64,000 nt of DNA from Panorpa germanica (lineage: Eukaryota; Arthropoda; Insecta; Mecoptera; Panorpidae), in assembly GCA_963678705.1 (NCBI GenBank), contig OY783207.1:2480001-2544000 (forward strand), written 5' to 3'. A program made the position numbers and the translations under genes. Positions 13,280 through 63,033 of this stretch are shown piece by piece. Under the pieces are notes generated by a model, which made no database searches, had not been told where the DNA came from, and saw nothing but the letters and a program-made list of their open reading frames with translations. Numbering within the stretch: position 1 is the first letter of the stretch; each line of letters begins with the position of its first letter.

Positions 13280-13563
13280 TAAAAATTTATTCTTTGACTT
13301 GACTTGATTATTTCGACTACCAACAACTACAAAACATTACCACAGCACTGACGTAATCAACAAATGCTGACAATGCATTTCACGTCATAGAAATATGGCC
13401 GACCATTTCTTGCGCTAAAACTACAATTCAAACTTTTAATTGCTATATCTCTGTCAACATTTAGATATTTAATAAAATAGACACGCCAATACACATTTAT
13501 TAACATCAATTTCAATCAACATTTGAAAAATCGACCACTAAAAAATAAGGACACAAGCCCATT
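13280..13563 (-). mobile_element. Family B element, truncated
   Basis: This is the reverse complement of the first half of the element at 32212-32850, ending at GGACACAAGCCCATT. The other half is absent. It is non-coding. Confidence 0.75.
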
Positions 13564-14321: not shown

Positions 14322-14700
14322 TAAATTTTTTTTTTTATTTATATTAATGTACAACATATTAAGTTTATTGTGTGAAAATTTGAAGTCTATTGGATCAAAA
14401 CTGTCGGAGATATAGAGTCTTAAGTCTTCACATCTTTGGTCTGGTTTCGTGTTTCTTTGAAAGTTTTAAACGCGTTTTTCTCACACTCAGATTTTTCAGA
14501 GTCAATGTCCTCTCTAGCTCAAAATCTACTGCACTGATTCTTTTGAAATTTTGTACACTCTTTCTTTACATAAAGGCCGAGGTAACGATGTCGGGGTTTT
14601 TTTTTAATTTAAACGTATTTTAAAATAACAAAGTTTCTGATATTTTTATGTAAAATCTGTATTTTGACTTCTAAGTGCTGTAAAAAATTCGACAGGGTTA
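14322..14700 (+). repeat. Family C repeat, truncated copy
   Basis: Matches the first ~380 bases of the repeat at 5024, from the T-rich start through ATTAATGTACAACATATTAA to ATTCGACAGGGTTA, where similarity stops. It lacks the segment that would read FFCDVCGDS in other copies. Confidence 0.7.
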
Positions 14701-18069: not shown

Positions 18070-18318
18070 ATGGAAAAAAAAAGTACACTGAGGGGCACGG
18101 ATGTGTACATAGAGGACGACTTGACGTACAAGGAGAGAGAGGTGCAGTGGCAATTGAGACAATGGGCAAAAAAGAAAAGAGAGGAGGGGAAAAAGGATGT
18201 GAAGGTCGGGTACAAAAAAGTATGGTGTGAAGGAACGCAGTATATATGGAATGAAAAAAACAAAGAACTGGAAAAGGGGGAATTTCGAAAACATGGTGAA
18301 GGAGTTGGGGGAAAGTAA
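18070..18318 (+). pseudogene. LINE ORF1 C-terminal fragment
   Basis: An 82-codon open frame containing TDVYIEDDLTYKEREVQWQL, rich in charged residues and followed by a basic stretch. This resembles the C-terminal region of ORF1 proteins of insect LINEs, which bind element RNA. The upstream part is missing because the element is 5'-truncated at 18045. Its frame differs from ORF2 and overlaps it by about 90 bases (18227-18318), as in other LINEs. Assignment rests on position and composition, not on a diagnostic motif. Confidence 0.55.
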
Positions 18319-21499: not shown

Positions 21500-22269
21500 A
21501 TAATCTGGTGGAGGATAATAGAGAGGGTCAAAAGAAGAAGAAGCAGAAAGCACTTTTGGAAGTAGTAAAAGTCGAGAAGATTTTAAGTTTATTTTAAGTT
21601 TAGTTTTTAAGTTTGGAATGTATATAGGAATGAAATGTATTAGAAATATAATACTGTAGATTGTAAAGCCGAAAGGCATACACAATTAATATATAAATAA
21701 ATAACTACTAAGATAACAACACAAATATTACACACTTTAAATAAATACATATTCGTCAATTTTTGTATATTTAAACATTAATAAATATTTCAATAAAGTT
21801 TAAAAAAGAAGTTCACAAGAATATAGTAAACAAGTATAATTTCGAAAAGGTATTAATAATATTTTGTTTGACCTAGAGAATAGAACACGCCTTCAAAATA
21901 TATACATAAGTCATTTTCTTTGCCTCTAATCTGCAATCTGCGGAATAAAAAAAATATATAACTGGCACTATAGCTCTAGCAAAACATCATTCCGTATTTT
22001 AACGTCAAATAGTAAGCAAGTCCATTGATAACAGTGAAGCGCCTAATGCAGCCGGGCGCCTGTCACACACACACACACTGCTGTTAGAAACTATTAGAAG
22101 CCAACATACACATCTATTTTTGATATTTGGAATCCTAAAGCTGTTTACCACCAAGCAGGAACTGTCATTTGTATTGTGTCAGTTTAACACAGAAGTGCTA
22201 ATTTCAGGTAAGCTATTATAAATATTATTTAATACTTATTTAAACAACAATTTTAAACAGTTAAGATTA

Positions 22270-22850
22270 CAAATTTTTTTAAATTTATTTTTAATATATT
22301 AACGTAAAACATATTAAGTTTATTGTCTGAAAATTGGAAATTGATTGTCGGAGATATAGAGTTTTAAGACCTCTCTGATCTGCTTTCGTGTTTCTTTGAA
22401 ACTTTAAAACGCGTTTTCTCACACTTAGCATTTTTAGAGTCGGTACTCTCTCTAGCTCAAAATCTACTGGACCGATCACCTAAAATTTCTGATTTTTTTA
22501 ATGAAAAATCTATCTTTTGACTTCTAAGTGCTGTACATAATTGAAAAATCAATAAATATAAAAAAAACTCGACAGGATTATCTGCAGCAACTTATCAACT
22601 AACGAAATCATTTTAGTTTTTTGATTTCAAATAATCCAGTGCTGAGTTATGAGTGACACCGCAATAAAACTTTTTTTTTGTGACGTTTGCGGAGATTCGC
22701 TGTCAATGCCTTATTTCTTGATATTTATTTATGAAAATTCCACAAAGTATTCTTTAAATACTATTTTATTATGTAGTAATTATGGACATAATTATATATT
22801 AAGTGTGTCGTCAAAAAACATTGTCGAAAATATGCTCTTTGTGTCGATTT
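22270..22850 (+). repeat. Family C repeat copy
   Basis: Matches the repeat at 5024-5640 with a deletion of roughly 70-80 bases in the middle. It retains TTTGTGACGTTTGCGGAGAT and a 67-codon open frame containing FFCDVCGDSLSMPYFLIFIY. Just upstream at about 22068 is a short CA microsatellite. Confidence 0.7.
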
Positions 22851-23474
22851 GAACTTACCCCCCGCCCCCACTCTCTCCCAGTTAAGAACACAGAAAATAA
22901 TTTATTTATATCTATATATAAATACATAATTAGTATATTTACTTAGTAAGATAAAGAAAAATGATTTTGAAATTGAATGCACGATATTTCCTGCCAGCGC
23001 TGTGCTCGCTATTGACACACGGTTACACTAATTAATAACTAAAGTTTCTTAATTATGAAAACCTTGAAACTAATAACAATTAACAATTACGCGAATTTAC
23101 GTTTTAATTTATTAGTTGCATAATTTAAAACGTAAAAACAGGCGAACAATTATTATGTTAACGAATATTTTAATGAGCTACCAATGACCTTTGAGCTGTG
23201 AATTTATGAAATAACGGGAATTAGGAGTTTTGCTGAACCAAAGTTATGTTTTTTCCAAAATAACTTACTCTAATTTATGAGCTATACTTTAGAAGTGCGA
23301 TATGGTATCTTCTTCGTTATAAATCAGTAATTTTGTGAAGCAGATTGTTCACTACTTCCTCTTAATCACAAATTAAATAATTTTTATTTACAATTATATT
23401 AAACTTTTAAGGTTCATACGCTTTGAGATCCTGATAACCAACTTTATCAATATGTAGTACAGTTTTATAGAAAT

Positions 23475-24110
23475 AGGGTTGTGTCCTCATCTTTTAGTGG
23501 TCGATTTTTCAATTGTTGATTGAAATTGATGTTAATAAATGAGTATTGGCGTGTCTATTTTATTAAATATCTAAATATTGACGGAGATATAGCAATTAAA
23601 AGTTTGAATTGTAGTTTAAGCGCTAGAAATGGTCGGCCATATTTGTATGATGTGAAATGCATTTTAACGTCAGTTATTTGTTGAGTAGGTCAGTGCTTTG
23701 GTAATGTTCTGTAGCTGTTGGTAGTCAAATAATCAAGTTAAGTTAAAGAATAATAAGTTTTTATTTTATTTAACCCTGCTAAGGCAGATATAATATTGAA
23801 ATTTGATTGTTCCTTGAAATAGCTGTATATAATATTTGATATTGTGATATATAAATACATATAGCACAGATTTATGAGCTGTAAGGTTGGTAACCTTACA
23901 CAGGGATTGTGATGTCACATGCACTTGGAATGTGTACAACGTTGAATCCCTTTAATAATTAAATAAACAAAATGAATTTTTTAATTGTTAATATCTCTTA
24001 ACATATGAGGAGTTATTAAAAAATAATTGAACATTTGAGGTTCTAGTAACACACTTTATCATTATATAGTACACTTTTATAGAAATTAAGACATAGGACA
24101 CAAGCCCATT
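23475..24110 (+). mobile_element. Family B element copy
   Basis: Runs from GTTGTGTCCTCATCTTTTAG to AGGACACAAGCCCATT and is collinear with 32212-32850. Internal landmarks are ATTGACGGAGATATAGCAAT, AACCCTGCTAAGGCAGA and GGTTGGTAACCTTACAC. The left terminus is worn. A short piece of the family's right end lies directly upstream (23430-23474). Non-coding. Confidence 0.8.
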
Positions 24111-24842: not shown

Positions 24843-25459
24843 AATGGGCTTGTGTCCTCATTTGCAGTGGTCGATTTTTCAATTGTTGATTGAAATTGAT
24901 GGTAATAAATGTGTATTGGCGTGTATATTTTATTAAATACCTAAATATTGACGGAGATATAGCAATTAAAAGTTTGAATTTGGTAGGCCATATTTTTATG
25001 ACGTGAAATGCATTTTAACGTCAGTTATTTGTTGAGTAGGTCAGTGCTGTGGTAATGTTTTGTAGCTGTTGATAGTCAAATAATCAAGTTAAATCAAAGA
25101 ATAATAAGTTTTTATTTTGTTTAACCCTGCTAAGGCAGACATAATATTGAAATTTGATTGTTCCTTGAAATAGCTGTAAATAATATTTGATGTTTTGGTA
25201 TATAAATACATAACAGAGATTTATGAGCTGTAAGGTTGGTAACCTTACACAAGGATTGTGATGTCACATGCACTTGGAATGTGTACAACGTTGAATCCCT
25301 TTAATAATTAAAGAGACAAAATGACTTTTTTAATTGTTAATTTCTCCTAACATATAAGGAGTTATTAAAAAATAATTGAACATTTGAGGTTCTAGTAACC
25401 CACTTTATCAATATATAGTACACTTTTATAGAAATTAAGACATAGGACACAAGCCCATT
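24843..25459 (+). mobile_element. Family B element copy with intact ends
   Basis: Both ends are intact: AATGGGCTTGTGTCCT at the left, AGGACACAAGCCCATT at the right. Length is 617 bp, collinear with 32212-32850 except for a small deletion that removes the GCGCTAGAAATGGTCGG segment. Inverted ends without coding capacity fit a non-autonomous DNA transposon. Confidence 0.85.
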
Positions 25460-26236
25460 CAATAACAATTTATTTCGACGCATATAATTTGCACTTGTAT
25501 AAGAAGCCATACTTAATGCATGCAAAGACTTCCATGCTGATCTGTGGACGCTCACCTAATTCACTACAATCTGTTTGCAGTGTATCTTAGACGGAGGCAG
25601 AGATAGTGTGCGCGGATTACTCAGGCGTGATTATAACAATTATCTAAAGTACACATAACATTATTTAAATGAGAAAAAAATCAGATACAAGCAAATGCAT
25701 GTCACGCAATTGAATATAATATCGTAATTATAATTGCAACGGTTGCAATATTAGGCCGTATTCTCGTTATAGGTGTTTGTTAACAATATAATTAAGTTTT
25801 AAAATAACTGTCAGAAACTAAGGGCGAACCTAGATTTTCCTTTTAGTACACAGACACTTTTCGTTTGAGCTATTTACGATACTAACTTTATACTCTTTTT
25901 AAAGGGAAAAATACCGAATCCGAATAACACTTGTCAAGCTTAGCTTGGTCTTAACTTAGTAATTAAATGAGAAAGAAATGTAAACATTTTGTAAGTTTAA
26001 GAAGGCAATACACTTCTTAAGCCGGACGAAATTTCTTTCCATTAAAAAGCAATGCTTTATCAAAACACGAAAATTAGATTTTCACGTTGTATAGAAAATT
26101 AGAAAAGCTACATCACAAAAATCACTGCAACTCGTAAACTAATAGTCTCAACGTCATGAAATTTTTGACACAAATTGTTTGATGTTTGTACTAAGAAGCA
26201 TATGAATTTGTCAATAGCAGCGTCACTTATATATCA

Positions 26237-32190: not shown

Positions 32191-32211
32191 GAAATTTGAA
32201 AGTATCTTAAA

Positions 32212-32850
32212 AATGGGCTTGTGTCCTCATTTTTTAGTGGTCGATTTTTCAATTGTTGATTGAAATTGATGTTAATAAATGTGTATTGGCGTGTCTATTT
32301 TATTAAATATCTAAATATTGACGGAGATATAGCAATTAAAAATTTGAATTGTAGTTTTAGCGCTAGAAATGGTCGGCCATATTTGTATGACGTGAAATGC
32401 ATTTTAACGTCAGTTATTTGTTGAGTAGGTCAGTGCTGTGGTAATGTTTTGTAGCTGTTGGTAGTCAAATAATCAAGTCAAATCAAAGAATTATAAGTTT
32501 TTATTTTATTTAACCCTGCTAAGGCAGACATAATATTGAAATTTGATTGTTCCTTGAAATAGCTGTAAATAATATTTGATATTTTGATATATAAATACAT
32601 ATAGCAGAGATTTATGAGCTGTAAGGTTGGTAACCTTACACAAGGATTGTGATGTCACATGCACTTGGAATGTGTACAACGTTGAATCCCTTTAATAATT
32701 AAAGGGACAAAATGACTTTTTTAATTGTTAATATCTCTTAACATATAAGGAGTTATTAAAAAATAATTGAACATTTGAGGTTCTAGTAACTCACTTTATC
32801 AATATATAGTACACTTTTATAGAAATTAAGACATAGGACACAAGCCCATT
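32212..32850 (+). mobile_element. Family B element, best full-length copy
   Basis: A 639-bp element with 16-bp terminal inverted repeats AATGGGCTTGTGTCCT / AGGACACAAGCCCATT. Collinear copies lie at 23475-24110 and 24843-25459, and truncated copies at 13280-13563, 33695-33830, 35440-36000 and 36577-36997. There is no open frame of significance. The superfamily is not assignable because no clear target-site duplication is visible. Confidence 0.88.
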
Positions 32851-35162: not shown

Positions 35163-38100
35163 ATGCCTATTAAGGATAACATTGGCCGCCGGCACTGTAT
35201 TCCCATCATTTATACCAGAGGGACTCATTATGAAGTTGGATTTGATGTGGTAAGTATTATAAGTAATACCAACTTCAAAATATAAAAAATCTTAGTAAAT
35301 ATTTTACAAGGTTGTAATCATTTACAGACTAAATAAATAATTCTAAAGATAATTATATCAATTGCTCTACTACATTGTAACTATTTTTTAATCATATATA
35401 ATAATAATTCGGTTGTGAATTAACTTAATTTCTATAAAACTGTAATATATATTGATAAAGTTGGTTACAAGAACCTCAAATGTACAATTATTTTTTAATA
35501 ACTCCTTATATTTTAGAAGATATTAACATTTAAAGAAAGCCATTTCGTCCCTTTAATTATTAAGGAGGTATAGGACGTAGACGCAAATGATGAAAACGTT
35601 GTGAAATTTGGAGGGTCAATACAAAGTTAAAATACATGCTGTCTCAAAATTTTAGAGACCTAGGGTTCCTAGTTTTCTTTTTATACATGATTAAAAATAG
35701 TCATTTTCCATACAAATCATAATTTTTAGCTCAATTTCACCACATAATATAACTTTTAACTATTAAAAAATGGTGACACGGCTTTCAAAAACTAGGTGTA
35801 TATAAAAGAATCTTTTCTGTAACTATTGCAAAAGGAAAATTATCAAAAGGATACCTATTTCTAGCGCTAAAACTACAATTCAAACTTTTAATTGCTATAT
35901 CTCCGTCAATATTCAGATATTTAATAAAATAGACACACCAATACACATTTATTCACATCAATATCAATCACCAATTGAAAAATCGACCACTAAAAAATGA
36001 GCCTCCTTAAAAATGATTTATAAATCTTCATGATCTGGATTTTACTAAAAACTATTACTAGGTTATTACCTATTTTCCTTAAATCGAATCACTCAAAAAA
36101 GGTAAGCGCCAGCACTTGCAAATGTATATATTAAGTTATATACAATCACAGTCTAACTGTCACAGTTGGTGACACGTTTCATAATGTTTGTAATTAGCAT
36201 GTACCTCTATAAATCAGGTTTTGCAAAATGCGCAATATATGGTCAATGTAGTTAATTAATTATTTTTTTTACATTTGACAGGTAACCCTGTATTGATTGC
36301 GTTGTAACAATGTTAAATTAATGGGTGAATGGAATATTACACAGGTGCACTGCTTGATAACAAGAGTAATGTTTAAATAAAGCGGATGCTATAAATATTA
36401 GATATACAGGGGTGGACCTTACTTAAGTAGCAGCTTTACAGATGACAATTATGCTGCATTATTTTAATCAATATTTTTATAGCTACTGAAAATAAGTTAC
36501 AAAAAAAAATAAGACGTTCAGTTTTAGGAGGTGTAAATTCGGTGATAGAGGGAGGGGGAAACCCCTATTTGCATTCAATGGGCTTGTGTCCTGTGTCTTA
36601 ATTTCAATAAAAGTGTACTATATATTGACAAAGTGTGTTACTAGAACCTCAAATATTCAATTATTTTTTAATAACTCGTTATATTTTAGGAGATGTTAAC
36701 AATTAAAAAAGTTATTTTGTCTCTTTAATTATTAAAGGGATTCAACGTTGTACACATTCCAAGAAATGTGACATCACCTCCACTAAGTTGCTATCTCTTT
36801 TACACAACAGTACATTAATAGCAGAGACATGATACGTCATAAAATGGCCGACTATCTGTAGCGCTAAAACCACAATTCAAATTTTTAATTACTATATCTC
36901 CGTCAACATTTAGTAATTTATTAAAATAAAAACGCCAATAGATATTTATTAACATCAATTTCAATCAACAATTGAAAAATCGACCACTAAAAAATGGTCA
37001 GCAGCATTAATGCTCTCGCCCACTGCCTGTATTCTATCTATTTCAGATTTCAAATGCATAAACTATCAAATACAAACTTGTGTCCATATCTCCTTACGAG
37101 CAATGAACTCTCGCGCGTCCCATTTTTAATGTTTTGTCAGTTTTAATTGTAACAATACAAATCAGTTCTCGTTATCGCACGCTGACTGATAAGAGAGTGA
37201 TAACATCATCTATGAATAAATATTTAAGCAACAATGTTTCATGTTGCAATGTTCTTACTTAAGGATTGGGTGAAGTCGAGCGTAAGAACTGATTCAATTA
37301 ACGCTTAATAAATTAAAATCAAACGAATGGACACTACATGTGCACGAAGCACGTATATTAGTTATCCACGATTGTGTAGGCAGAGAAATTCATCGTCGAA
37401 CTATGCATTCTGGGTAGCCAGTCTCATGTAGAATTTAGTTTGAATTTTCGGAGTGGAAGGCGCCACTATCGGCTGTCATTTTCGTTACTTCTTAGAAACC
37501 GTAACTTTCACAAAAATTTATAAGAAAATAGTTATTAATATATGTTAAAAAAAAATATGAACAACATTTTTCTGAGAGTAAAGTATCATTCCCACTCACT
37601 GCTTTAATTTAATTTTGTATTTTGTATTTAATTTAAATTATTCAGCATAAGGTAATACGCGTAGTCATTTACAGTACCATTTTTAATTAAATTTAGAACC
37701 TTACAAGGTCCAATGTTTTAAATTAATAAAAACTATATTATATTATAACCTCCAAAATGTGACAATCTGTCAAAATGCAGTACAATTTATATTTAAAAAA
37801 AGTTTAATGTCAGTTTTTGAAAAATATAGAAGTGAAAACAATTTCCATTACTAATTGTTATTAAAAATAGCAATTTTAATTATTTCACATATAATTTTGT
37901 CCAACTGTCAAAATTTATATTACTAACGATACATAACCAAATAAATTAACTAAACTTAAATTAAAACACAAATGTGAAAAGGAATGCTTAAACGAGAACC
38001 TGAAATCTAGATTACAATATTAAATAAAAACAGTAAATTAAATACCAAAACAGTGAGTGGGAATGGGCTTTATACTTTTCAAAACATATAGAAAAATTTG

Positions 38101-41723: not shown

Positions 41724-43497
41724 ATTAAAAATCATCTTAACTTATATACATTTCTTGGTTTTGGTAAAGCAGCGAAAATGATTTTTTAGTAGTTGGTAAA
41801 ATTACTTTAAAAACATTTTCATTCTGTCTACCATTTTTAATTTTATTTTACCAAAAAGTATTTTAATTGTTCTTTTACAAAAATTATAATCGAAGGAGGC
41901 GCTGGAAGGATATGGCCACTCAAAATATGTCAGTTTAAATCGGATGTACAAATAATCCTCGATGAATTTAATTTCAGTTCAGGAAATCAATTTATAAATT
42001 CAATTCGGGACAAATTGAAAAAATATGTATCTTTGACTTTCGCTACAATTACTAAGCTAATTACTAAATACATAGATGGTGATTAGTTAATGGCGTCAAT
42101 AAGTTCACTCTGAAACGCAAATCTTATTTAATTTAACTTTTAACTTATTAAAACCCTACAGCCTATTGTATCTTAGGAATGTACGTTCTTTAATAATAAT
42201 GACTCAGTATAATTAGCATCGTGTCTTTATTAAAATGAATGACAGAGAAAAGCCTCGTTGTGTAGAAAAGAGCATCCTATTTCTGGAATATCTGGAATAT
42301 CCCATCACTCCTCTTCCCCGAAACCAACCATCTATGTATCTCTATATTTTGAAAACGTTAATAAAAAAGTTTCAATGTATTAATTCAATAATGAGTGAAT
42401 CAATAAGATCTGACTATATTAAAATTGCCGCCATTTTACACTAGTGTTACTTAACTGTGTGAAATTCAAGATATGTAGTCTAGAGACTTGGAAAATTAGT
42501 CGTGGTAACGCTATAAAGTATAAAGGAGGAGGAAGGTGTTTAAATTCCCAAAAATATCTGTCAGCACTTTCCAGTTTTCAGTTTTTCAGTACTCAAATAC
42601 TTCTAGCGCCTGCACTAAATTATTTTATTAACATAATTAATGTATACGAATCAGTGTCTAACATTATAGTTACCTAAAGCAGTGCCGAACCAGGAAGGGG
42701 CGTCAAAAATATAGACCAAACTTTCACGCTGAGCATACATATGCTAGACAGTAACGGAACAGTCGACCTTTATCGCTAAACCGGAGTGTGAATGTATGGT
42801 ATCTCAGGTTTACCGGTAGAGGCAGACTGTTCCGGTAAAACTGTACGGTAAATCGCTACGTGTTTGCTCAATATTATAAACAGATTACGGCATTGTCTAA
42901 AAACCAAAGCAGACAATTTTTATTTTCTTAATATTGAAATAATATTTTTTTGATTCAAAACAATACATAATGCTTTTGTTTTAATATAATTAAATTTATA
43001 TTCATTATAATTTTATTTCTTAGTATTTGTACCTTATCAATAACAATAATTTTTAATAAAAAGTTATATTTAAATCTTATTTAAATTTCTAATTACAAAT
43101 AATAAAATATAGTTCCAACATTTGCTAATATGGCTGTTGCTTGAGATCACTAATTATAAAACTCCTAATTTAGTTATTTACTTATTTATATAATTCTTGT
43201 ATTCTTCTATTAAATGTTAACCAATATAATTATTAACCATTGTAAAAGAAAGTTGTGTAATTTAATAAACTTATACATTTCTTAATTTATGTTTTTACAT
43301 AGTCGTACGATTGACTAAGGCATGAATCTGTCCCTTATTTATGGCTCTATAAAACGATATTCGAACTTCGCAATTTAAGGGTACATTACCCAAAGGTCTA
43401 CCCACAATTTTAGAAAGAACATAAAATTACCATCATTAAAAGTTAAAGCAATTTATTATTAACTCCATTAAAAGAAGGATAAAATATATACCATAAT
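41724..43497. other. Intergenic region downstream of tan
   Basis: No gene or element boundary is supported. No canonical AATAAA lies close behind the tan stop, so the tan 3' end is undefined. Short frames at 42235 and 42444 have no motifs. Confidence 0.45.
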
Positions 43498-45525
43498 GCA
43501 CTTCTTCTTATTCCTCTGCCATAAAACAATTGCAAGCTTGCTTTTAATTCCATTATCTTCCATTTTGATCATGAAATCTCCTAATTTGTGTTCTTTGGCA
43601 CTGCCATATTATGTCCAGCGCAGCACGATGGAGAGGTAGAATCTCTTCACATGTTACATCCAAAGCTGGAATAAACTTCAGGAAGGCCACAAGTAGCTCG
43701 ATGATCACTGTTCGATCAGATCGTCATGGGAAGTGAGCTCTCTTGGGAAATGGCTAAAATATAGCAACTTTAGAAAAAGGTAGATAGTAAAATAAGTGTG
43801 TAACGATACCTGGCAAAAACTGGATCTATCTTTTTTGCTTGATGATTTATTCTTGTTTCAGAAGATGTGTCACTTCCTGAAGATACAATTATATATGGAT
43901 CAGGAGTTCCAGAATTATCCTTCAGATGCAGAGAGAGAGACCACGAATAATGTAGTCACGAACGCGCAGCATTATTGGATCGTTAAGAAGAAGATGTTGA
44001 TCTATTCTACAGGTAAGGGACATGTTTGTGTTTTAACTTACTTATGGTCCGAAACTTCTAATTCTATTTTAGCTGTTAGTAATTCAACATTAACAGCTCT
44101 GGAATCATTCGCACCATTTATAGAAATGAAATTATCACACTGATCATTGAAACCGTATAATTCTCGTTCTCCATGTTTTTCAATTTAATCTGTCAATCAT
44201 TTTTTGATCACAGTTGGCTGTCATTTCATCAAAGGACATCATCTTAACTGCTGGCCACTGCATGAATAATCAGGATAATCAAACTTGTTGCAGCGTGATT
44301 GCAGGTCAAACCGATATAGAAGAACCAGATATAGAGACCAGTCAAAGGATCAACGTGAAGGAATACGCAGTTCATCCCGACTATGTACCTTCGTCCTTAA
44401 AGAACGACATCGCGTGTTGTAGGTTGAAGGAGAATCTCCGTTTCACTGACACCGTGAGACCAGTCAAGCTCCCAAATAAAAATCTCAATGGGAGCTTGCT
44501 GGATGAACTAGACAGTGTCGTTACCGTCGGGTGGACAGTTAGGATCGCGGATCTAGAACTTACGAGCGGCATGCTGCAACGCGTTGAACTTCCGGTGATT
44601 TCAAATAGAAAGTGCAAGGATTATGCTTATAATGTAACAATTTCCGCTGTTCACATGTGTACGTTGTATGGCATTGATTACCATACATGCCAGCCGGAAG
44701 CTGGATCACCAATTGTTACTACAGACGACACCTATTTGCAGGTCGCAGTTGTCTCCTTTGGAATTGAATATGGAGATGGGACCCATCCGGGTATTAATTC
44801 TAGAGTTGACAAATATATTAACTTTTTAGAAGAGTGTGTAAAAGGAGATTGGTCAAGACTACCAGGTGGAACTTGGGGACCGCTGAGGAACATTATGGCC
44901 TGCTGCAATAAACTGGTTCCGTTATCTATGTTGATATTAAATATGTTGTGTACATTATACCTATTATAGATATAAGCAATCCATAGTTTCTTTATTATCT
45001 TACTGATTATAACTACTGCGAAATTCGAAAGTAACGACTTGCGGGAAATTCTGTCCGTTCTACAATAGGAACTGTGTCACATTTTGGTATCTACTCAGAT
45101 TTTGGAGCTTGGTCTCCTGGGCCTGTCAAACTATTCGCACATTCACATGGATCGATGAAACAGTTAATTAGAAATATTTAACCATTAAAGAATTATAAAA
45201 TTTTGTCTAACTTCAATGATTTGCTTCTTGAAAATTTCGTTCTCATCCATTTCTTTCTCACTTATAGTTTCCTCTTCAACTTCATCTTTATTTTGCTTTC
45301 TGGCTGCTATATTTTATTTTTCTTTCGAATACATTTAAGTTTTTTGGTTGCTTCATTTTTCTCAAGATCTACTAGACCCTTTCACTTATCTTCCGTTTCT
45401 TCCGTTTTTGGAGAATTGCTTTCTATAATCCTTCCAAAGAACACCGCATGTATTAAAATTTGAAATGATTTCTGATGATGAATGAAAATTTGTTCTATTA
45501 CAGTTTTAGAATAATAATAGTAACT
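43498..45525 (-). pseudogene. Decayed duplicate of the 3' half of the ferlin gene
   Basis: This block repeats ferlin segments in the same order and strand. About 43498-43535 matches the last exon (ATTCCT.TGCCATAAAACAAT). 43555-43740 matches exon 23. 43785-43990 matches exon 22, 44040-44215 matches exon 21, and 45157-45520 matches exon 19. Exons 24-26 and most introns are missing, and indels break the frames. By eye the best stretches are near 85-88% identical to the parent (for example around TAAGAAGATGTTGATCTATT). Between the exon 21 and exon 19 remnants sits a copy of the nested protease (44214-44969), exactly as in the parent locus. It is a segmental duplication followed by decay of the ferlin part. 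Confidence 0.88.
44214..44969 (+). pseudogene. Trypsin-like protease paralogue, N-terminally truncated, catalytic Ser lost
   Basis: Paralogue of the protease at 53282-54310. The open frame runs about 251 codons to the stop but has no ATG at its left edge: it begins TTGGCTGTCATTTC directly after a stop codon and a CAG. Signal peptide, pro-region, IIGG and the first ~35 residues of the protease domain are absent. The histidine (LTAGHC) and aspartate (NDIACC) remain. The active-site GDSGG has become PEAGS (Ser195 to Ala), and S1-pocket Asp189 reads His, so it cannot be a trypsin. Disulphide cysteines and a hydrophobic C-terminal tail are kept. A spliced upstream exon would be needed for expression; otherwise it is a pseudogene. 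The absence of internal stops is notable, so a serine-protease homologue remains possible. Confidence 0.8.
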
Positions 45526-45599
45526 GGTGATGACCCTTTCTTTTATCTTAAGAAATGCAGAAAATCTTTCATTTGCCAAAATTAAAACTACACATATTT

Positions 45600-46477
45600 A
45601 TTAATTTTCTTAATTAATCTTATATTCACATAACTTATCTTATTATTTCAGAAGTATTGAGAAAGTCATCAGTCGCGCTGCGCCTATCCAAAACTAACAC
45701 AAAACGCAAAACTTGTGGACTTCCAGAAAGAAGCAAAGAAAAACACATGCTTGAAAAATAATTCATAAAATTTAAGAAAATTATTTATAAAATATGTGAT
45801 ATTTTAATCGATAATATTTAATAACAAATAAAATGTAAAAATATTTTAGAAAATAAAAATACTAAATCGAAATTTACTTCTTTTATTTTAATTATAAAAA
45901 TATTAACAGTTTTGAAAAAACTAGAAAATACTAAAAATACTTAAAGAAAATAATATTTAGTTTTTTTAAATAATTGAATTAGAAAGTATTACCTAGAAGT
46001 ATAAAGTGTATGGTCTTTTATATTAAGAAATGCAGAAAATTAATGACACTGTTGCGCCTGATAAAGAGGCAACACTAATTACGAGCATAATTTACACTAC
46101 CAGAATTCATTCATTCGTTCTTACACACTTAAATGTAGTATCTAATTGGTACTTAGTTGTAGATGTAAGAAGCAATTAAATTTAACGGTTTTTTTTACGT
46201 ATATGTTACATTCCATTAAAATAACAATAACAGTGAAACCAGAGTACATACACATAAAGAGTAACAAGAAAGTATTAAATAAAAATAATTCCAACACTTC
46301 ATGGGTAGAGCATACTCAACGCAACGTCCTTGAGGTCAGTGAAGTCACGACAACAATAAATTTAACCTGTCAAAATGTTATTTAAAGAGCTGTAGTAAAA
46401 TTTACGCCATTCACAAGAAAGTAGAGGAAGCAATTCACAGGGTTCATTTTTGAATGAAATTCGATCGCTTATAAATA
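45600..46477. other. Non-genic stretch
   Basis: No gene or repeat boundary is recognised. The interval is very A/T-rich, with short frames only. Confidence 0.45.
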
Positions 46478-46485
46478 TTTACTAG

Positions 46486-49400
46486 CTGCTCAACCCGTTG
46501 CAAGACAACGTGTGTGAGTTATGCGCTTGATTTTTTTTTAAACAATTAATATTTCAAATGTGTGTAATTTTTTAATTGAGCTGCATCCGCTCCAGATTAA
46601 ATTAATAAACTGTTATTAAATTTACAATACATACGCGCATCTGACTTTTATGCGACCTTTTAAAAATTCATGGACAATTTTATTCTAAATTTCTTTTTTG
46701 ATTTCTTGAAATATTTTGATGCAGTTATGTTCGTTAGGCTTTAAAATAAAGAACTGCTTCATTTGTTTTTAAATATCTGTGCGTTTCTGGCTTTTATGCG
46801 ACCTTTTTTATTTTCATGGACATTTTCTTTTTAAATAAAATTTACATTTCTTTAAAATTTTTGATGCAGTTATGTTCGTTAGGCTTTAAAATAAAGACCT
46901 GCTTCATTACTTTTTAAATAACTAAGCGTGTCTGACTTTTATGCGACTTTTTTAAAATTCATGGACTTTTTTTTCTAATTTTTTTTTCTTGATTCCTTGA
47001 AATATTTTGATGCAGTTATGTTCGTTATGGTCTAAATTAAGGAACTGCTTCATCAGATTTTAAATATCTAAGCAAATTTGGCTTTTACGCGACCTTTTTT
47101 AAATTCATGGACTTTTTTTTTCTAAATTTTTTTTTCGATTTCTTGAAATATTTTGATGCAGTTATGTTCGTTAGGCTTTAAAATAAAGAACTGCTTCATT
47201 TGTTTTTAAATATCTGTGCGTTTCTGGCTTTTATGCGACCTTTTTTATTTTCATGGACATTTTCTTTTTAAATAAAATTTACATTTCTTTAAAATTTTTG
47301 ATGCAGTTATGTTCGTTAGGCTTTAAGATAAATAACTGCTTCATTACTTTTTGAATAACTAAGCGTCTTTGGATTTTATGCGACTTTGTTAAAATTCATG
47401 GACTTTTTTTTTCTAAATTTTTTTTTTGATTTCTTGAAATATTTTGATGCAGTTATGTTCGTTAGACTTTAAAATAAAGAACTGCTTCATTACATTTTAA
47501 ATAACTAAGCGTATCTGGATTTTATACGACCTTTTTTAAATTCATGGACTTTTTTTCCTAAAACTAAAATATTTATATTTTTGAAAAATTATTTGTGTTT
47601 TCTAACGTAGTTTTTTATGCTGATTTCAAAATTGAAATCCATTTTTAATTATCTGTTATAGTTTTCGAGTAATCTGCGTGTAAAGTTTTTGACTATTTTT
47701 CACTTTAAAATGCTCATATCTCGTAAACCAAAAGACTTACGTAAAAATGAATTACAGATTTGAAATCAGCATTCAAAACTTTTTGATGCAGTTATGTTCG
47801 TTAGGCTTTAAAATAAAGACCTGCTTCATTACTTTTTAAATAACTAAGCGTGTCTGACTTTTATGCGACTTTTTTAAAATTCATGGACTTTTTTTTCTAA
47901 TTTTTTTTTCTTGATTCCTTGAAATATTTTGATGCAGTTATGTTCGTTATGGTCTAAATTAAGGAACTGCTTCATCAGATTTTAAATATCTAAGCAAATT
48001 TGGCTTTTACGCGACCTTTTTTAAATTCATGGACTTTTTTTTTCTAAATTTTTTTTTCGATTTCTTGAAATATTTTGATGCAGTTATGTTCGTTAGGCTT
48101 TAAAATAAAGAACTGCTTCATTTGTTTTTAAATATCTGTGCGTTTCTGGCTTTTATGCGACCTTTTTTATTTTCATGGACATTTTCTTTTTAAATAAAAT
48201 TTACATTTCTTTAAAATTTTTGATGCAGTTATGTTCGTTAGGCTTTAAGATAAATAACTGCTTCATTACTTTTTGAATAACTAAGCGTCTTTGGATTTTA
48301 TGCGACTTTGTTAAAATTCATGGACTTTTTTTTTCTAAATTTTTTTTTTGATTTCTTGAAATATTTTGATGCAGTTATGTTCGTTAGACTTTAAAATAAA
48401 GAACTGCTTCATTACATTTTAAATAACTAAGCGTATCTGGATTTTATACGACCTTTTTTAAATTCATGGACTTTTTTTCCTAAAACTAAAATATTTATAT
48501 TTTTGAAAAATTATTTGTGTTTTCTAACGTAGTTTTTTATGCTGATTTCAAAATTGAAATCCATTTTTAATTATCTGTTATAGTTTTCGAGTAATCTGCG
48601 TGTAAAGTTTTTGACTATTTTTCACTTTAAAATGCTCATATCTCGTAAACCAAAAGACTTACGTAAAAATGAATTACAGATTTGAAATCAGCATTCAAAA
48701 CTACATTACAAACCAATGAAATATCAACAATTTTTTTTCTTCAATTTTTAAGAAAAGTAAGAAGACTATAGTCTTCTTACTTTTCTTAAAAATTGATGAA
48801 ATTTTTTTGTTGATATTTCATTGGTATTTAATGTAGTTTTGAATGCTGGTTTCAAATCTGAAATTCATTTTTATGTAAGTCTTTTGGTTTACGAGATATG
48901 AGCATTTTAAAAGTAAAAAATAGTCAAAAACTTTACACGCAGATTACTCGAAAACTATAATAGATAATTAAAAATGGAATTCAATTTTGAAATCAGCATA
49001 AAAAACTACGTTAGAAAACACAAATAATTTTTCAAAAATATAAATATTTTAGTTTTAGGAAAAAAAGTCCATGAATTTAAAAAAGGTCGTATAAAATCCA
49101 GATACGCTTAGTTATTTAAAATGTAATGAAGCAGTTCTTTATTTTAAAGTCTAACGAACATAACTGCATCAAAATATTTCAAGAAATCAAAAAAAAAATT
49201 TAGAAAAAAAAAGTCCATGAATTTTAACAAAGTCGCATAAAATCCAAAGACGCTTAGTTATTCAAAAAGTAATGAAGCAGTTATTTATCTTAAAGCCTAA
49301 CGAACGTAACTGCATCAAAATATTTCAAGAAATCGAAAAAAAAATTTCGAAAAAAAAAGTCCATGAATTTAAAAAAGGTCGCGTAAAAGCCAAATTTGCT

Positions 49401-49920
49401 TAGATATTTAAAATCTAATGAAGCAGTTCCTTAATTTAGAGCATAACGAACATAACTGCATCAAAATATTTCAAGGAATCAAGAAAAAAAAATTAGAAAA
49501 AAAAGTCCATGAATTTTAAAAAAGTCGCATAAAAGTCAGACACGCTTAGTTATTTAAAAAGTAATGAAGCAGGTCTTTATTTTAAAGCCTAACGAACATA
49601 ACTGCATCAAAAATTTTAAAGAAATGTAAATTTTATTTAAAAAGAAAATGTCCATGAAAATAAAAAAGGTCGCATAAAAGCCAGAAACGCACAGATATTT
49701 AAAAACAAATGAAGCAGTTCTTTATTTTAAAGCCTAACGAACATAACTGCTTCAAAAATTTTAAAGAAATGTAAATTTTATTTAAAAAGAAAATGTCCAT
49801 GAAAATAAAAAAGTTCGCATAAAAGTCAGAAACACATAGAAAATATAATGAAGCAGTTCTTCATTTTAGATCATAACGAACATAACTGCATCCAAAAATT
49901 TCAAGAAAGTGTTAATTTTC
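46486..49920. repeat. 3.4-kb satellite-like block with a giant palindrome
   Basis: Plus-strand units of about 146 bp carry GATGCAGTTATGTTCGTTAG at 46718, 46863, 47009, 47155, 47299 and 47447. Each unit also has ACTGCTTCATT and TTTATGCGACCTTTTTT. A 921-bp block (46863-47783) is repeated almost exactly at 47784-48704. At 48768/48769 the sequence turns around (GAAGACTATAGTCTTC), and the opposite strand continues with the same units to about 49920, giving arms of more than 1.1 kb. TTTACTAG occurs at 46478-46485 and again at 49921-49928, a possible 8-bp target-site duplication. There are no significant open frames. Confidence 0.9.
46863..48704 (+). repeat. Head-to-tail 921-bp higher-order duplication
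   Basis: Units 46863-47783 and 47784-48704 are nearly identical by eye. Each contains five ~146-bp subunits followed by a unique spacer (AAATGCTCATATCTCGTAAA, CCAAAAGACTTACGTAAAAA). Subunit starts shift by 921 throughout (for example 47155 to 48076). Confidence 0.88.
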
Positions 49921-50475
49921 TTTACTAGTAATTCCGGGGACTACATAGGAATGGTTGAGCCTTAGAAATTATAATTATTTTTGTAAATTTCAACAACCTT
50001 AGATTAGTAAGTTTGAATGTGGTGTTATTTAGGTTGCATCATATGTAGGCGTTATTGTAGATTTGCCATCTGTTGATCAAATAACGAACTGTTTATAATT
50101 TTTTTGCTACTCCGTAATAGATGTCACTAATAAATTAAGTCAATTAATGTTTAAGCCAATTATTAAGTTAATGTTATTTAATTTATTAATTATTAGAAAT
50201 TTTACTGTATACTAAAAGTAGTACCTCTGTTGAAACGTGAAATCCTATTCTTAATTTTTAAATATTCCGGTTCTACTCCTTGCTAAATGTTTACAGAAGT
50301 TCTTGTAATTTCTATTTTATATTTAATGTTTTTGCAAACAAAAATTTATTGAAATAATCAAAATAATTAAATTTCATACAGTGTGATATGATTCACCTGC
50401 AGTCCGTGTTTATATTGCCTAGGTTTAAAAATCTTGTAATTTCATTTATTAATAATAAAAGAGCCACTAAATATA

Positions 50476-50481
50476 TTTATT
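50476..50481 (-). terminator. Ferlin polyadenylation signal candidate
   Basis: AATAAA on the minus strand about 50 bases beyond the ferlin stop codon. Another AATAAA overlaps the last codons themselves. Confidence 0.5.
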
Positions 50482-50527
50482 ATAAAATAATAACAATAAT
50501 AAAAACATTTACAAAGTATAAAATAAA

Positions 50528-53500
50528 CTATAATTTATTTAAAAAACTTTGAACCATATAACCAGGCAACGCATACACCGCCAGTAGAACAAAGGCGACC
50601 AGTAGAAGACCAATTGTGAACAATATGCACTTCTTCTTATTCCTGCGCCATAAAACAATTGTAAGGACCTTGAAAGGATTCTTGAACCATTTGAACGAAG
50701 TATCAGGACGACTGAAATACAGATATGCCATGAAAAAAAATTGATTAACATTTTTCAGAATACAATATGAAGATACAAACTGTGGTTCTGGAAGACCTTG
50801 AGGTTCCTGACGTCCTTCTCCAGCAGGGGCAGCTTCAGCATCCAACCTGGTCAAGATTTGCAGTTCTAGTTCTACCTTACCCTATATATTACATTAAGAT
50901 TTTGAATCCATTAAATAATCTAAAATGTGATTGAAATATACATGCCGTAACAATATTTGTCCCATCTTTCTGTCTCGCTTTGCAGGGCCACCAACCCCTA
51001 GTACTTTTAAGTTTAAACAAATTAAGTCTCGGAGCAGATGGCTTTATGGTATCCATCGTACACTCATCTGGAGAGCGAGCCCCGCGCCACAGTCGTCTAA
51101 GATCTAGCACTAAAGATCCTATTAAATCATCTTCAGAAAAAGAATCATTATCCCAAATTTGTACATTCAATTTACATGGTGATTTGCGTTCTACCTCTCC
51201 AATTCCAAAAACACTATCTCTTAGTGATTCCAGTATCTGGAAGTTTGCAGGTAAAGGTATTACTGTACTTCTATTTGAATTGAGAGCAGGTTATCTGTCT
51301 CAACTTACCATTCCTTCAGAATACAAATATCTGAATCTAAAAATGAGTCTCCAGTTAAAGTTGCCTTCACCTGTGATGCTGCGATAATGTATGTCTGTAG
51401 ATTGTGCTTGCTTTGGATTGTTCACCCACGCACGAACATAAATATCAGCCATTTTCTCACCGGTATAAAATTCATCTTCTCCTAACAAGACGTCCTTTGT
51501 GTTCCAAACGATAACTCGCAATTCATACTCAACGGAAGAACGTGGTGAAATTTTTACAGCTGGAGGAGGATACGTGCAGCTTAGAGGAAAGAGATCCACC
51601 CAGAGTTGTAACTTGCCTTGTTCTAATCCTGGTTTCTTTGGGTTATACAATATTCTTGTCTCTACATGCTCTGGAACTAGTGTTATTTTATTTGGAGAAA
51701 CAAGTTGCCAATTTCTTAACACTTGGAGGCTCAGTTGCTCACGCTTTGTAGTTTCATCTGCATTTTCATCTACAACATTTTTTTAATCAATAATATATTA
51801 TGATAAATCCTATATTATGATGTTCCAACTGTATGTTTATATTCTTATTTTCTTATTTGTTTACGCGGTTCGTATTGGTATTGGTATTCGTGAAAATTTG
51901 CTATTTGGTAGAGAAAAATATTCTAAGACTTTTGGCGTTCCCGGATTTTTCCCTCTATAAAACCTGGAAACCCGTAATTTTGGAAAAACTGGAAAGAAAA
52001 TAATCACTTTCTTCTGTATCACTTTATATAGTAAAAGACAGAAAGTTGAAATTTTGCATGCGTATTACGGTGTTCAATGCTGACATTTTTCAAAAAATAA
52101 AAATTCAAAAATGGGAAAGGGGGGCTTAAAAAAATTAGGTTCCAACGTTATGATCTAAATTATTATTAATAAAAAAATATTCAAGGCACGGGGGCGGTTT
52201 TTGCCGAGAGGCAAAAATATAGGCTAACTTTATATAGGCTAACTTTGATACCTAATTTACAAATCGAAAAAGGAATTCAAATTTTAAAAGAAATTCAATT
52301 CACATACAAAGGACAATCGTCGCTTGCGACGGGGGTGATCTCTAGTAAATATATATTATTAGAAAAACCTAAGAATTTATTAGAATCTTCTATTTTGATC
52401 ATGACATCTCCCACGGTGATGGCATCGCCCGTGTTCTTTGGCGCTTCCATATTATGGCGAATGCACATCGTCTTCAACAAACTCGATGGAGGGGTAGAAT
52501 CCCTCCACATGTTATATCCAGAGCTGGAGTAAACTTCAGGAAGGCCACAAGCAGCTCGATGGTCACTGTAAAATCTGTCTTCAATATCAATAGTGGTCGA
52601 GCCAATGAGATCGTCATGGGAAGTGACATCCATATCCATAACATCAACTCTTAAAGTATGATCCCTCGGGAAATGCGCTTGCAGCTCATACATTCTGACT
52701 TAAAACAATGCAAGTTACCACTTAACTTTTGTAAAAGGTAGATAGTGTAAATAAGTGCGTCACGATACCTGCCAAAAACTGGATCTATCTTTTTTGAGAC
52801 GTAGTTTGCTCGGTCATTTATTCTCGTTTCAGGAGTTGTTCCACTTCCTAAGGATACAATTATATATGGATCAGAAGTTCCTGAATTATCCTTCGGATGC
52901 AGAGAGAGACCGCGAATAATATAAACACGAACGCAGAGCATTATTGAATCGTTAACAAGAAGATGTTGATCTATTCTATAAAGAGAAATTCAGAATTAGA
53001 AACGGAAATGCGTCTTAAGAAATATATTGCAGTACTTACTTATGGTTTTCGGTTCTCATTTCGTCGTCACTTTCCAAAGCTTCTAATTCTATTTTAGCTT
53101 TTAATAATCCAACATTGACATCTCTGGAATCATTCGCACCCTTTGTAAAAATGAAACTATCACACCAATCCTTGAAACCAGAAAATTCTCTTTGTTTTTC
53201 AAGTTCGGATTCATATATCTGTAAATCATTATTTGAATCACAGTTGGCTATCATTTCATTCATTCCAAATTTTTCTAAATCATGCAGTTTTTATTATTCA
53301 TTTCTATAATTTTTTCAACAATTTCCTTTTCACTTTCATATAAAAATGGTTACGGATTTGACATTGTAAGAAATTATTCAGATCATGCCAACGATTATTT
53401 AAGTTCTATTTCATTAGAAGAAACACCAGAAAAGATAAAAGAAGAAGAAAGAATCATAGGTGGGATAGACACAAATGTAAAAGCATATCCCTTCATTGTA

Positions 53501-56500
53501 TCCATTCAAAAAAGGCAGAGTAAATTTCATTTCTGCGGTGGATCAATATTATCTGATACCTTGATTTTATCTGCAGCGCACTGCTTCATCAGTGAACACC
53601 AATCATGTTGCTGCATACTTGCGGGACAAACATACATTCGAAACAACGACGTAGGTACTGGTCAACGAATCAACATCCAGCAAACCGTAATTCATCAAGG
53701 CTACAATCAGGCAACCTTGCACAACGATATCGCTTGCTGTAGACTGGTAAGCCCCCTGACCTTCACTCCAACTGTGCAAGCAGTCCATATTCCGGACGCG
53801 GAACACTTTGGGGAATTAGCAGACAAAGTTCAGAACGTTGTCGTTATAGGATGGGGAGTTACTCAAATGGGCGGTCCGACGAGCTCCACTTTGCAACAGG
53901 TTCGACTACCCGTAATTGAACTCAACAGGTGCCAGGCTTTGTATGCTGACATGGCAGTTTCCGATACACAAATGTGCACCTTGTATAGCGATGGTGGTAA
54001 GGATTCATGCCAAGGAGACTCTGGGGGACCCGTTGTCGCAGCAGACAATCGCACTGTGCAATACGGGCTTGTATCGTACGGAGTAAATTGTGCAGAACCG
54101 CAACATCCAGGTGTTAATACTAGAGTGGACAAATATCTGGACTTTATTAAACGTTGCTTAGATAAAAATGATCCGATTTATCAGATGCCAAACCCAACAC
54201 CGAGTAACCCCGATTTGCACCATGGCATGCCACATATGTCATGCAGTAACAACCTGTTACCTTTAACATATTTGATACCAAATCTGATGTGTATCTTTTA
54301 CCTTTTATAGATTATACAATACACAGCTTCTTCATTAACTAACCGAGTATTATTTCGAGCTACGAATTGCAGTACGAAAATTAAAATTAAAATCACGAAT
54401 GGAAATGAAATGCCATTAAATGAGCTAAAATGTTATTCTGATGATATTAGAAACAGAGTTTTGTTCATAAGAAATAAAAGACTCATTTTTTTTAGTTTAA
54501 AACGAATGTCTCTTTTTAGTTGATCTTACAGCACACAAAACCATAGAAGATTATAATAAAAACGCAGAAGTGTAAAAAGTCAAACTGAATAATTTAGTGG
54601 TGAATCAGTATGCCTAACGACGCTGTGTTCTTTATGACAAATTTAACAATATCTAATTAAATTTTTAGGGTGGTTTCCTGATGTGGTCAGCATCACATAC
54701 ACTCAACATATTGCAAGTCTCACCTGTACTCACCTGTAATTTACAATGCCCGTCACTTTGTTTTAACTCATCATCGGGAACATCCAATTTTTCCTGAAAA
54801 ATAAATAAATATACAACAAATCCGTGAAACAATCCCCACAATTATATGTATGAAACAGTTAATTACCATCAAAGAATTATAAAACTTTGTCCACCAATCA
54901 AATTCTTCTTCAATGACTTCTTTCTTGACAATTTCATTACCCTCCATTTCTTTATCAACTTTAGTTTCCTCTTCAACAACTGCTTCATTTGTAATTTGAA
55001 TCTTTTTTGCTTTTTTGCTGATAAATTTTATTTTTCTTCCGAATATTTTAATAAAACTAACTTTGGGTTTATTTGTGGCTTCATTTTTCTCAAGATCTAG
55101 GCCTTTTACTGATCTGAAAGGCTCAGAGCTTTCTTCCGCGTTGGTGGAGTTTCTTTTTATAATCTTACAAGAAACTCCACATATATTGAAATTTGAAATG
55201 ATGTCCCCTTCTTGATGTTTTTCCTCGGGTAGCGATTTCATGCTCGTGGATAATGAATTTTCTTCAATTACAGTTGCTAGAATAATATAAGTCTGTAAAA
55301 TTCTGAAAGATGATATGTACACTTTAAATAAATAATATTTCTTACATGACGAATCCTTTATCTGAATATATTTAACATCTCCTTCTTTAGGTTCCCGAAT
55401 TCTTTGAAATCTAGCTGCATTCTTTTCCAAAAAAGCGCCCACTACAGTAACTCTTCCAAAACTTTTGCGATCCAATAATTTTAAAGTCAATGCTGGCCAG
55501 TAATCACTCTGTTCAGGCAAGGTCTAGATCAAGATAAATAAATTGACTGGTATTAAAGCAGACAAAGTATTCAATAAAATTGCAATTTGAAACATCCTCT
55601 TTAAGAAGTTGCTTACAATATCGAATACTTTGTACGGATCCAAGAAGTTGACACAATGTCCATCGTAATTGCTGCACAATCCGGAATCTACTGAATTGGA
55701 ACCAAGGTCCAGGCGAGCGCTGGGCTTCGCTATGTTGAACATATGTAACCGTTTCAAATCTCGAAGACCCCAGAACATGACTTTACCTCTAAAATATAAA
55801 TAGAAATTATGTAATAATTCTACTACTTTTAATAACTAGTTTAAGACTGTTTAAACAACCATTGTACAACAACAAATTGTATTCAATTTCAATTTTGTTA
55901 AAATCCTATTCACGGAATAAATATCGTTAACGGATGTAGCTGGATAATATCCTTAATAATTCATTTAAAATATAAAATTACATGCAAATAAAGTTATACC
56001 TAAAATTCATCATACGTGGTCTGATTTCTTCTGGGATTTCAAGATGTGTAGGAGAAGGTTCAAGTTGTTTAAGAATTTCAGGATCATTAGACAACTATAA
56101 AAATCCAATATTAATAATTATTGAAACGTATGCAACAAATTAATACTTATAATGTTGCCCAGATTTTAAATTTTATTTTTGTGTATAAAAAAAAGCAACC
56201 TGTAATAATTCGATTGCTATTAAAACTTCTGCTGTAACTTCCCCTAATTTAGAGAGGGACTGCCAAGTTAACTTCGGGGGTATATCATAAGACTCCGTTA
56301 ATATTTTTACCAATGGTTTTATAGCTGTTCTACCAAAAAATTCAGTTTTCCCCTAAAATGATATCACAAATTTATTAAATATATTATGTTAATATTCGAT
56401 CAAGTAAGAGAAAAATGTGCGTCTCACATGTGCGTCAGCGTCATATATCTCAACAACCACCGGCGATGGATTCTGTCTAACATTTTGAGGCTCTCCATAT

Positions 56501-61817: not shown

Positions 61818-63033
61818 TTACTTCAATTTTTTATCTTTCAATCCCTTCAGTTCTTCGAATCTTTTAAATTCTATTTCAGCAATCTCATCTTCTGGTCCTT
61901 TTACCTGTTCAACACTTAGAACTTCTGGGATATAAAATTGCAACATATTCTGAACCCCATTTTTCAGGGTAACAACAGAACTGGGACAAGATGTACATGA
62001 ACCTTGCATCTTCAACTGCACCTTTTGAAAAGAACATTCATTATAATAAGTAAATAATTTCTTTTAAAACTGTGTTAAAAGCAAAGATGTGCACAAATAG
62101 TTTTCAAAAGTATTTAAATACAAAATAGACCAGGCTCCCAGAGTAGTTTCGTTTGCAAACAGTTTGCGATCTGCATATTTTGTAAAGAAACTACTCTGGG
62201 AGCATGGTCTATTTTGTATTTAAATACTTTTGAAAACTATTTGTGCTCTGGTTAATAGTATCATTAATCTTACTACGCCATCTTTAAAAGAAATGAATAG
62301 TATATCTCCACCATCTTCTTGCACTGTTGGCCTTATTCGAGTATCTAAGAGCTCTTTGATCATCATAACGGTTTCGTCATCATCATCATTGATTTCTGTA
62401 AATTAGAAATATTCTCGAGAAAACTGTATAAATTGTGTTAGTCTTTAATGATGTTAAGTTTAGGACATACGGGTATCCTCAGAAGGTTTTGCGTCTGTAA
62501 TTATTGGCAAGCCACTCGCAGAAAAATCCATTATAACAGCAAATATTTCTGGCAATAAAGTTTTCCATTCTACATTTTCATTGTGTTTTGTAACTGTTAT
62601 AAAATCAGGACCGAAGAATACGCTTTTAACGCCATTGATTCTAAATAAAAGTTTAGCAAGTGGACTGCAGTATGCAGCAAGTCCATTTGGAAAATCCATT
62701 GTTTGTCCTGGTTCAAGAACTTTAGATCCCGGGAGAAACTTTTTGCTATTAGGATTTGGCGTATCTTGTGTTTGAATAAACATATTGCGGCATTGTTGAA
62801 TTATTGGAGATGGACGAGAATTGAGAATCGTTACTCCATTATTGCTATTGACAGTATAATCACATTTTTGAAAATATGAAGTTGCTCTAAAATATATACA
62901 TAGGAAACAATTAGTGAATTAAATTGGAAAGATTAATGCTTTAAACAATATGTGGTAAATACCCTAATAAACGATGATTAGCAACTGTTCTTTGGTATAC
63001 AGCTCTGCAAACTTGTATAGTGTTTCGAAACAT
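61818..63033 (-). CDS. NFU1: NFU1 mitochondrial iron-sulfur cluster scaffold/carrier
   Basis: Four exons: 63033-62963, 62886-62471, 62395-62274, 62021-61818 (813 nt, 270 aa). All phases close. NFU1 delivers [4Fe-4S] clusters to mitochondrial enzymes such as lipoyl synthase and complex II. The first ~55 residues ([20 protein letters not shown] onwards) are basic with few acids, like a mitochondrial presequence. The N-terminal Nfu domain begins [19 protein letters not shown]. The C-terminal NifU-like domain includes [11 protein letters not shown] and the cluster-binding CXXC in [15 protein letters not shown], then [13 protein letters not shown]. Start chosen because the only ATG upstream of exon 2 in frame gives a plausible presequence. 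Intron 3 contains a long hairpin (62091-62246). No disruption is visible. Confidence 0.95.
62091..62246. repeat. 60-bp-stem inverted repeat in NFU1 intron 3
   Basis: Left arm 62091-62150 and right arm 62187-62246 are reverse complements with about one mismatch. The loop is 36 bases. The arm begins GCACAAATAGTTTTCAAAAG and ends AGAGTAGTTTC. It could be a small MITE or, as transcribed intronic RNA, a long hairpin. No coding role. Confidence 0.85.

Follow-up and report, generated by a model that had tools for sequence, protein, structure and literature searches.

The window, a 64,000-nucleotide stretch of the Panorpa germanica genome (GenBank assembly GCA_963678705.1, contig OY783207.1, positions 2,480,001 to 2,544,000 of the forward strand), contains AAT-domain exons as well as ferlin and trypsin-like exons, and a long palindrome lies between two of its genes. 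To the left, a trypsin-like open reading frame (ORF) on the plus strand (44208-44969) reads towards the palindrome from about 1.5 kb away; to the right, a ferlin gene on the minus strand also reads towards it, with its stop at 50528, 0.6 kb away. The first-pass annotation had placed the palindrome just downstream of a gene cluster, which is roughly right given these distances.

The 3' region of the ferlin gene, with a trypsin-like gene inside it on the opposite strand, forms an old partial tandem duplication (43496-45472 and 50625-55205). Seven matching pieces occur in the same order, six of them at 68-93% identity and one, of 19 nt, at 100%. The two trypsin-like proteins share 104 of 258 residues (40%). 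Where the catalytic-serine motif GDSGGP aligns, the left ORF reads EAGSPI, and because of this replacement it probably encodes an inactive protease homologue. The best PDB match of the trypsin-like protein is a "hepatopancreas trypsin," a crayfish protein.

Other repeats are scattered over the window. An ORF of 1090 amino acids at 18227-21499, with endonuclease and reverse-transcriptase domains and a strong GC skew, is apparently an open ORF of a non-LTR-type retrotransposon. A repeat of about 640 bp is present in three direct copies that are 91-96% identical (23468-24110, 24843-25462, and 32208-32850) and in partial copies at 13280-13567 and within 35424-36996. An inverted repeat pair (5025-5602 and 6425-7006, 83% identical) has further copies at 14321-14689 and 22262-22840. 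At 10389-10867 lies a tandem array with 2.6 copies of a 182-bp unit, which has no blastn match to the units of the palindrome. Finally, a second and much smaller palindrome of about 156 bp (62091-62246) is 90% self-complementary and resembles a miniature hairpin element.

From its centre outward, the long palindrome consists on both sides of a spacer of about 284 bases and then of tandem units of about 146 bases. The units are L0 to L6 on the left and R0 to R5 on the right; on the left, a second copy exists of L2 to L6 and of most of the spacer. The features are as follows.

46478-46485, no strand: left copy of TTTACTAG, a candidate target-site duplication (no better than chance)
46580-46717, plus strand: L0, the outermost recognisable left unit, degenerate (65.6-76.1% identical to the other units)
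46718-47563, plus strand: outer copy of the left array, units L1 to L6 (starting at 46718, 46863, 47009, 47155, 47300, and 47446)
46858-47779, plus strand: first copy of a 922-bp tandem duplication, identical to 47780-48701
47780-48701, plus strand: second copy of the 922-bp duplication, comprising units d2 to d6 (starting at 47785, 47931, 48077, 48222, and 48368) and spacer
48486-48768, plus strand: spacer S, left of the centre, with an older inverted repeat (48482-48608 against 48624-48748)
48741-48796, no strand: central perfect palindrome of 56 bp, loop-less
48769-49052, minus strand: spacer S', right of the centre (14 mismatches in 283 aligned bases against S)
49053-49753, minus strand: right array, units R5, R4, R3, R2, and R1, near-identical to their left partners
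49754-49892, minus strand: R0, the outermost right unit, not the partner of L0 (92.1% identical to L1 and 65.6% to L0)
49921-49928, no strand: right copy of TTTACTAG, a candidate target-site duplication (no better than chance)

When the window is compared with itself by blastn, the two arms match at E=0, far beyond chance. The sequence reverses at 48768|48769, with 28 perfect bases on each side and no loop. The uninterrupted mirror comprises 984 nt on the left (47785-48768) and 840 nt on the right (48769-49608), in which 821 of 839 aligned bases are identical (97.9%) and the only gaps are a 145-nt unit, present on the left side only, and a gap of 1 nt. If one copy of the 922-bp duplication is taken out, the mirror reaches 46718 on the left and 49753 on the right. 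With the outer copy kept, 965 of 984 bases are then identical (98.1%, with gaps of 1 and 145 nt), and with the inner copy kept, 964 of 984. Inclusion of weaker outer homology, up to 46640 and 49830, gives 1024/1057 (96.9%). A plain gapped alignment that does not allow for the extra unit L4 yields only 1038/1134 (91.5%), because the left arm has this unit and the right arm does not. The limits set by the first-pass annotation, 46486-49920, are not mirrored; both arms run there into differing flank sequence. Its description is thus correct as to the type of structure, though in part wrong as to how far it extends. The point of reversal is where it had been put, and the mirror does take in the spacer and several of the units. 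However, the arms, said to exceed 1.1 kb, are not unbroken over such a length, and the direct duplication of 922 bp in the left arm had gone unmentioned.

No ORF of at least 70 amino acids exists within 46486-49920. A search of 45500-50600 for known RNA families returned seven matches, each below its gathering score. At the centre (48735-48803) there are sub-threshold matches to the microRNA families mir-9457 and mir-627 (32-38 bits against gathering scores of 86-90) and a weaker one to MIR6425, which is no surprise in an AT-rich palindrome.

With a profile built from the units, 18 copies of about 146 bp are recognised in the window, 12 on the strand of the left arm and 6 on that of the right, and no further copies above the inclusion threshold elsewhere in the 64 kb. 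Even the degenerate L0 is recognised (nhmmer E=1.6e-27 for 46579-46716). From one arm to the other, the units pair closely (R5 with L6, 100%; R4 with L5, 99.3%; R3 with L3, 97.9%; R2 with L2, 100%; R1 with L1, 99.3%), whereas units of the same arm (L1, L2, L3, L5, and L6) are only 78.6-89.8% alike. L4 has exactly the sequence of L1 and lacks a counterpart on the right arm. R0 most resembles L1, L4, and d4 (92.1%), the latter two being copies of the first. When the DNA of four of the seven unit types (L1, L2, L3, and L5) was folded, nothing unusual was seen in the hairpins (z scores of -1.41 to 0.68).

Two outward extensions of the arrays were rejected. Between 46486 and 46579 the match to a unit is weak, with 9 of 300 shuffles as good in the best of seven unit comparisons (L2); the corresponding counts are 15 for L1, 17 for R0, 56 for L5, 62 for L3, 93 for L0, and 143 for R3. 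Beyond 49892, shuffles did as well in 1 of 300 cases for both L1 and R0, 9 for L5, 30 for L3, 31 for R3, 49 for L0, and 75 for L2, with a query that held 8 bases of R0 itself.

The two copies of the 922-bp duplication overlap by one base at their junction and differ at no position; as assembled, this duplication is either very young or an assembly error. The spacer has a longer history. Its two halves, one of them inverted, align with a local score of 46, against a mean of 13.6 and a maximum of 22.5 in 200 shuffles, and a search with the spacer as query recovers the same reversed matches, with all six hits inside the palindrome. Mismatches between the arms are denser in the spacer (14/283) than in the units (5/701; p=5e-5). 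The concentration persists if the inner 922-bp copy is used (14 in the spacer against 6 in the units; p=1e-4) and if five neighbouring mismatches are counted as one event (10 against 5; p=0.0024). Conversion or unequal exchange between the arrays, or faster change near the centre, may have caused this excess; either would do.

In our view, the locus is best explained as a non-coding, foldback-type compound inverted repeat that arose by inverted copying around 48768 and needs no host function, a reading to which we assign a probability of roughly 0.55. A short array of ~146-bp units beside the ~284-bp spacer would have been copied in inverted orientation around this point. The array appears to have grown and diverged first and then to have been inverted as a block, because the cross-arm pairs are 97.9-100% identical and in order while units within one arm are only 78.6-89.8% alike. 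Most likely, a DNA end that had broken or stalled would have folded back and primed synthesis, and the hairpin would then have been filled in and replicated. Inverted duplications of this type have been described in which a broken end folds at a short inverted repeat, primes its own synthesis, and gives a hairpin that is replicated; the route is reported to be supported in yeast lacking Sae2 or the nuclease activity of Mre11 (PMC10622511). A route of this kind may have operated in the present organism. Since the spacer already was an older inverted repeat, fold-back duplication has probably taken place here at least twice; the older repeat is seen in the DNA, and the history is our reading of it.

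After the inversion, the units of the two arms would have come to differ by 0.7% and the spacers by 5%, and the units may have stayed alike through conversion or unequal exchange. The left arm would have gained a unit, or the right arm lost one: because L4 is identical to L1, it may be a later copy within the left arm, or else its right counterpart was lost. Then 922 bp of the left arm would have been duplicated in tandem, without one later difference. The ancestral unit may have arrived as a mobile foldback element. Some observations sit less well with inverted copying around 48768. (i) A single inversion followed by even divergence would not leave the units changing more slowly than the spacer, and conversion is only invoked to account for the difference. 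(ii) Palindromes whose centre lacks a loop should be unstable, and the persistence of this one is not explained.

The Tribolium macro-dyad satellites, as their description has it, are similar in several ways: they are tandem arrays that switch orientation, with a hairpin-capable symmetry and a distinct sequence at the inversion site (PMC13081366). This hallmark, a tandem array with inverted subarrays (here of 12 units on one strand and 6 on the other), is found at our locus. However, macro-dyads are described as abundant, probably pericentromeric satellites that range from a few kilobases to 75 kb (PMC13081366), whereas the present repeat is a single locus of about 3.4 kb with 18 units, situated between genes.

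A possible, though less likely, alternative is that the palindrome is a rearranged copy of a foldback-type transposon in which recombination exchanged or removed the outer ends, as it has in chimeric Galileo copies. The foldback transposon had also been proposed in the first-pass annotation, and in architecture it fits: the hallmark of such elements, long inverted arms with internal tandem repeats, is present. Arms of about 1.1 kb with unequal numbers of tandem repeats recall two known systems. (i) Tetris, a foldback transposon of Drosophila virilis, is described as having no conserved ORFs, an inner domain, and inverted arms of up to 1.7 kb in which ~220-bp tandem repeats vary in number, with copy-number changes of a single unit and a link to satellite arrays (PMC4079207). 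In contrast to the present locus, the described Tetris arms end in an outer flanking domain, with 8-10-bp target duplications, and the element exists in several copies (PMC4079207). Here the outer ends are unmatched, the target duplication is at chance level, and one copy is seen in the window; the unit has 146 bp, and there is no middle domain but a loop-less centre. (ii) Galileo is a P-superfamily transposon with arms of up to ~1.2 kb; according to its description, the arms of subfamily F carry ~210-bp tandem repeats whose number differs between the sides, and arms have been lengthened by inverted duplication of inner sequence (PMC3573991). Twelve copies are reported to be chimeric, with arms that have diverged and flanking 7-mers that do not match, and others share with another copy a centre at 98% identity but an outer 570 bp at 77% (PMC3573991). 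Such chimeric copies would, like our locus, lack ends that are inverted copies of each other (PMC3573991). Galileo differs in that no transposase ORF lies inside the present locus, and the likeness is one of architecture, not of sequence comparison.

For the THAP domain of the Galileo transposase, binding to sites within the tandem repeats of the arms is reported (PMC3688188). In the present array, six unit types (L1, L2, L3, L5, L6, and R0) share a 19-nt block, GATGCAGTTATGTTCGTTA, without any variation, which is more than even decay would leave and weighs somewhat against simple inverted copying; an invariant run of this length occurred in 1/5000 column shuffles. Because Galileo arm repeats carry secondary binding sites, the block is suggestive of a protein-binding site, and under the transposon reading it could be a putative secondary site for the transposase. 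However, the signal weakens once the degenerate L0 is counted: the longest invariant run is then 9, reached in 208/5000 shuffles, and the clustering of invariant columns is matched by 172/5000.

The outer ends speak against a transposon. The 8-bp repeat TTTACTAG at both limits of 46486-49920 resembles a target-site duplication, but the flanks (46380-46620 and 49860-50060) share six 8-mers where 2.8 are expected, and at least one was shared in 86.8% of 500 shuffled pairs; the flanks also share one 9-mer elsewhere, CAAGAAAGT. Just inside the candidate duplication, the two ends match at 5/16 bases, or at 8/16 if it is read as the 7-mer TTTACTA, and the outermost units L0 and R0, at 65.6% identity, are not inverted copies of each other. 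Among all end pairs combining a 4-10-bp duplication with a 16-bp terminal match, the best reached a score of 18, against a mean of 16.4 and a maximum of 20 in 40 shuffles.

The window is rich in other dispersed repeats and holds a reverse-transcriptase ORF, as might suit a mobile element, but neither the unit nor the spacer has a copy elsewhere in the 64 kb. Within 46486-49920 there is no related transposase, nor would there be one in a non-autonomous copy. Exact unit and spacer patterns gave 0 matches in viral and prokaryote contig collections, which says little about an animal repeat. The ferlin/trypsin duplication provides no evidence of an empty site, because the flanks find no more than the following in the window: 49921-50700 finds, besides itself, a short ferlin-exon match (43492-43537), and the left flank (45473-46486) a match with E=0.29. 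Because a defining feature of such transposons, outer ends that are inverted copies of each other, is missing, we call the palindrome foldback-like, not a proven transposon.

It is very improbable that the palindrome is an artefact, whether of a fold-back chimeric read or of a head-to-head join between allelic copies. Chimeric reads are known to produce long palindromes, and an exact duplication of 922 bp is what a misjoin would give. A fold-back chimera would leave arms that differ by read errors alone and flanks mirrored up to a join. Judged from the assembled sequence, however, a read chimera is an unlikely source of the palindrome, because its arms differ by 19 substitutions and by gaps of 1 and 145 nt (the latter a whole unit) in 984 aligned bases, with the differences concentrated near the centre, and because each arm leads into a flank of its own, which is not mirrored and carries coding exons farther away. 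The artefact that the first-pass annotation had considered is thus unlikely for the palindrome; the exact 922-bp duplication may be one.

The third reading of the first-pass annotation was an siRNA- or piRNA-producing locus. We give equally little weight to the suggestion of a hairpin RNA (hpRNA) locus, in which a read-through transcript forms a duplex that Dicer-2 cuts into siRNAs with a genomic target. The long double-stranded RNA that had been anticipated does hold as a prediction: the longest perfect run between the arms is 326 bp, the predicted fold of 1969 nt has an energy of -1292 kcal/mol, and such a transcript would be a good Dicer substrate. The position between two genes that read towards the palindrome is favourable as well. 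Moreover, the Drosophila hpRNA loci described are long inverted repeats that can be tandem, and in one of them, hp-tHMG-solo, the left arm is locally duplicated in tandem (PMC10317233). In contrast to those loci, the present one is known from its DNA and not from a transcript, siRNA, or target. The arms match nothing else in the window by blastn, so no target is seen there, and the microRNA-family matches at the centre lie far below the gathering scores and are such as a palindrome may well give. Least probable of all is a palindrome generator, in which a tandem unit with the conserved 19-nt putative protein-binding block and a half-site in inverted orientation would repeatedly provoke fold-back duplication. 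Inverted repeats that differ in age would thereby become nested in one place, and the hairpin transcript would feed a host small-RNA pathway.

Our analysis favours inverted copying around 48768. The locus looks like a palindrome with arms of about 1 kb that are 98 percent identical, situated between two animal genes and composed of non-coding, foldback-type repeat DNA; nothing seen so far shows a job for it. It changes nothing in what is known about foldback-type structures and is ordinary in kind, yet well preserved, and it is a reminder that apparent target duplications do not by themselves make a long palindrome a transposon. At face value, the steps that turned a tandem array into a palindrome can be read from the locus in sequence, because the units have diverged enough to be told apart: growth of the array, an old fold-back of the spacer, a second fold-back that included the array, gain or loss of a unit, and a fresh 922-bp duplication. 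Which of the first two came earlier is not fixed by the sequence. Read in this way, the locus would be an instructive case of growth in structures of the foldback type.
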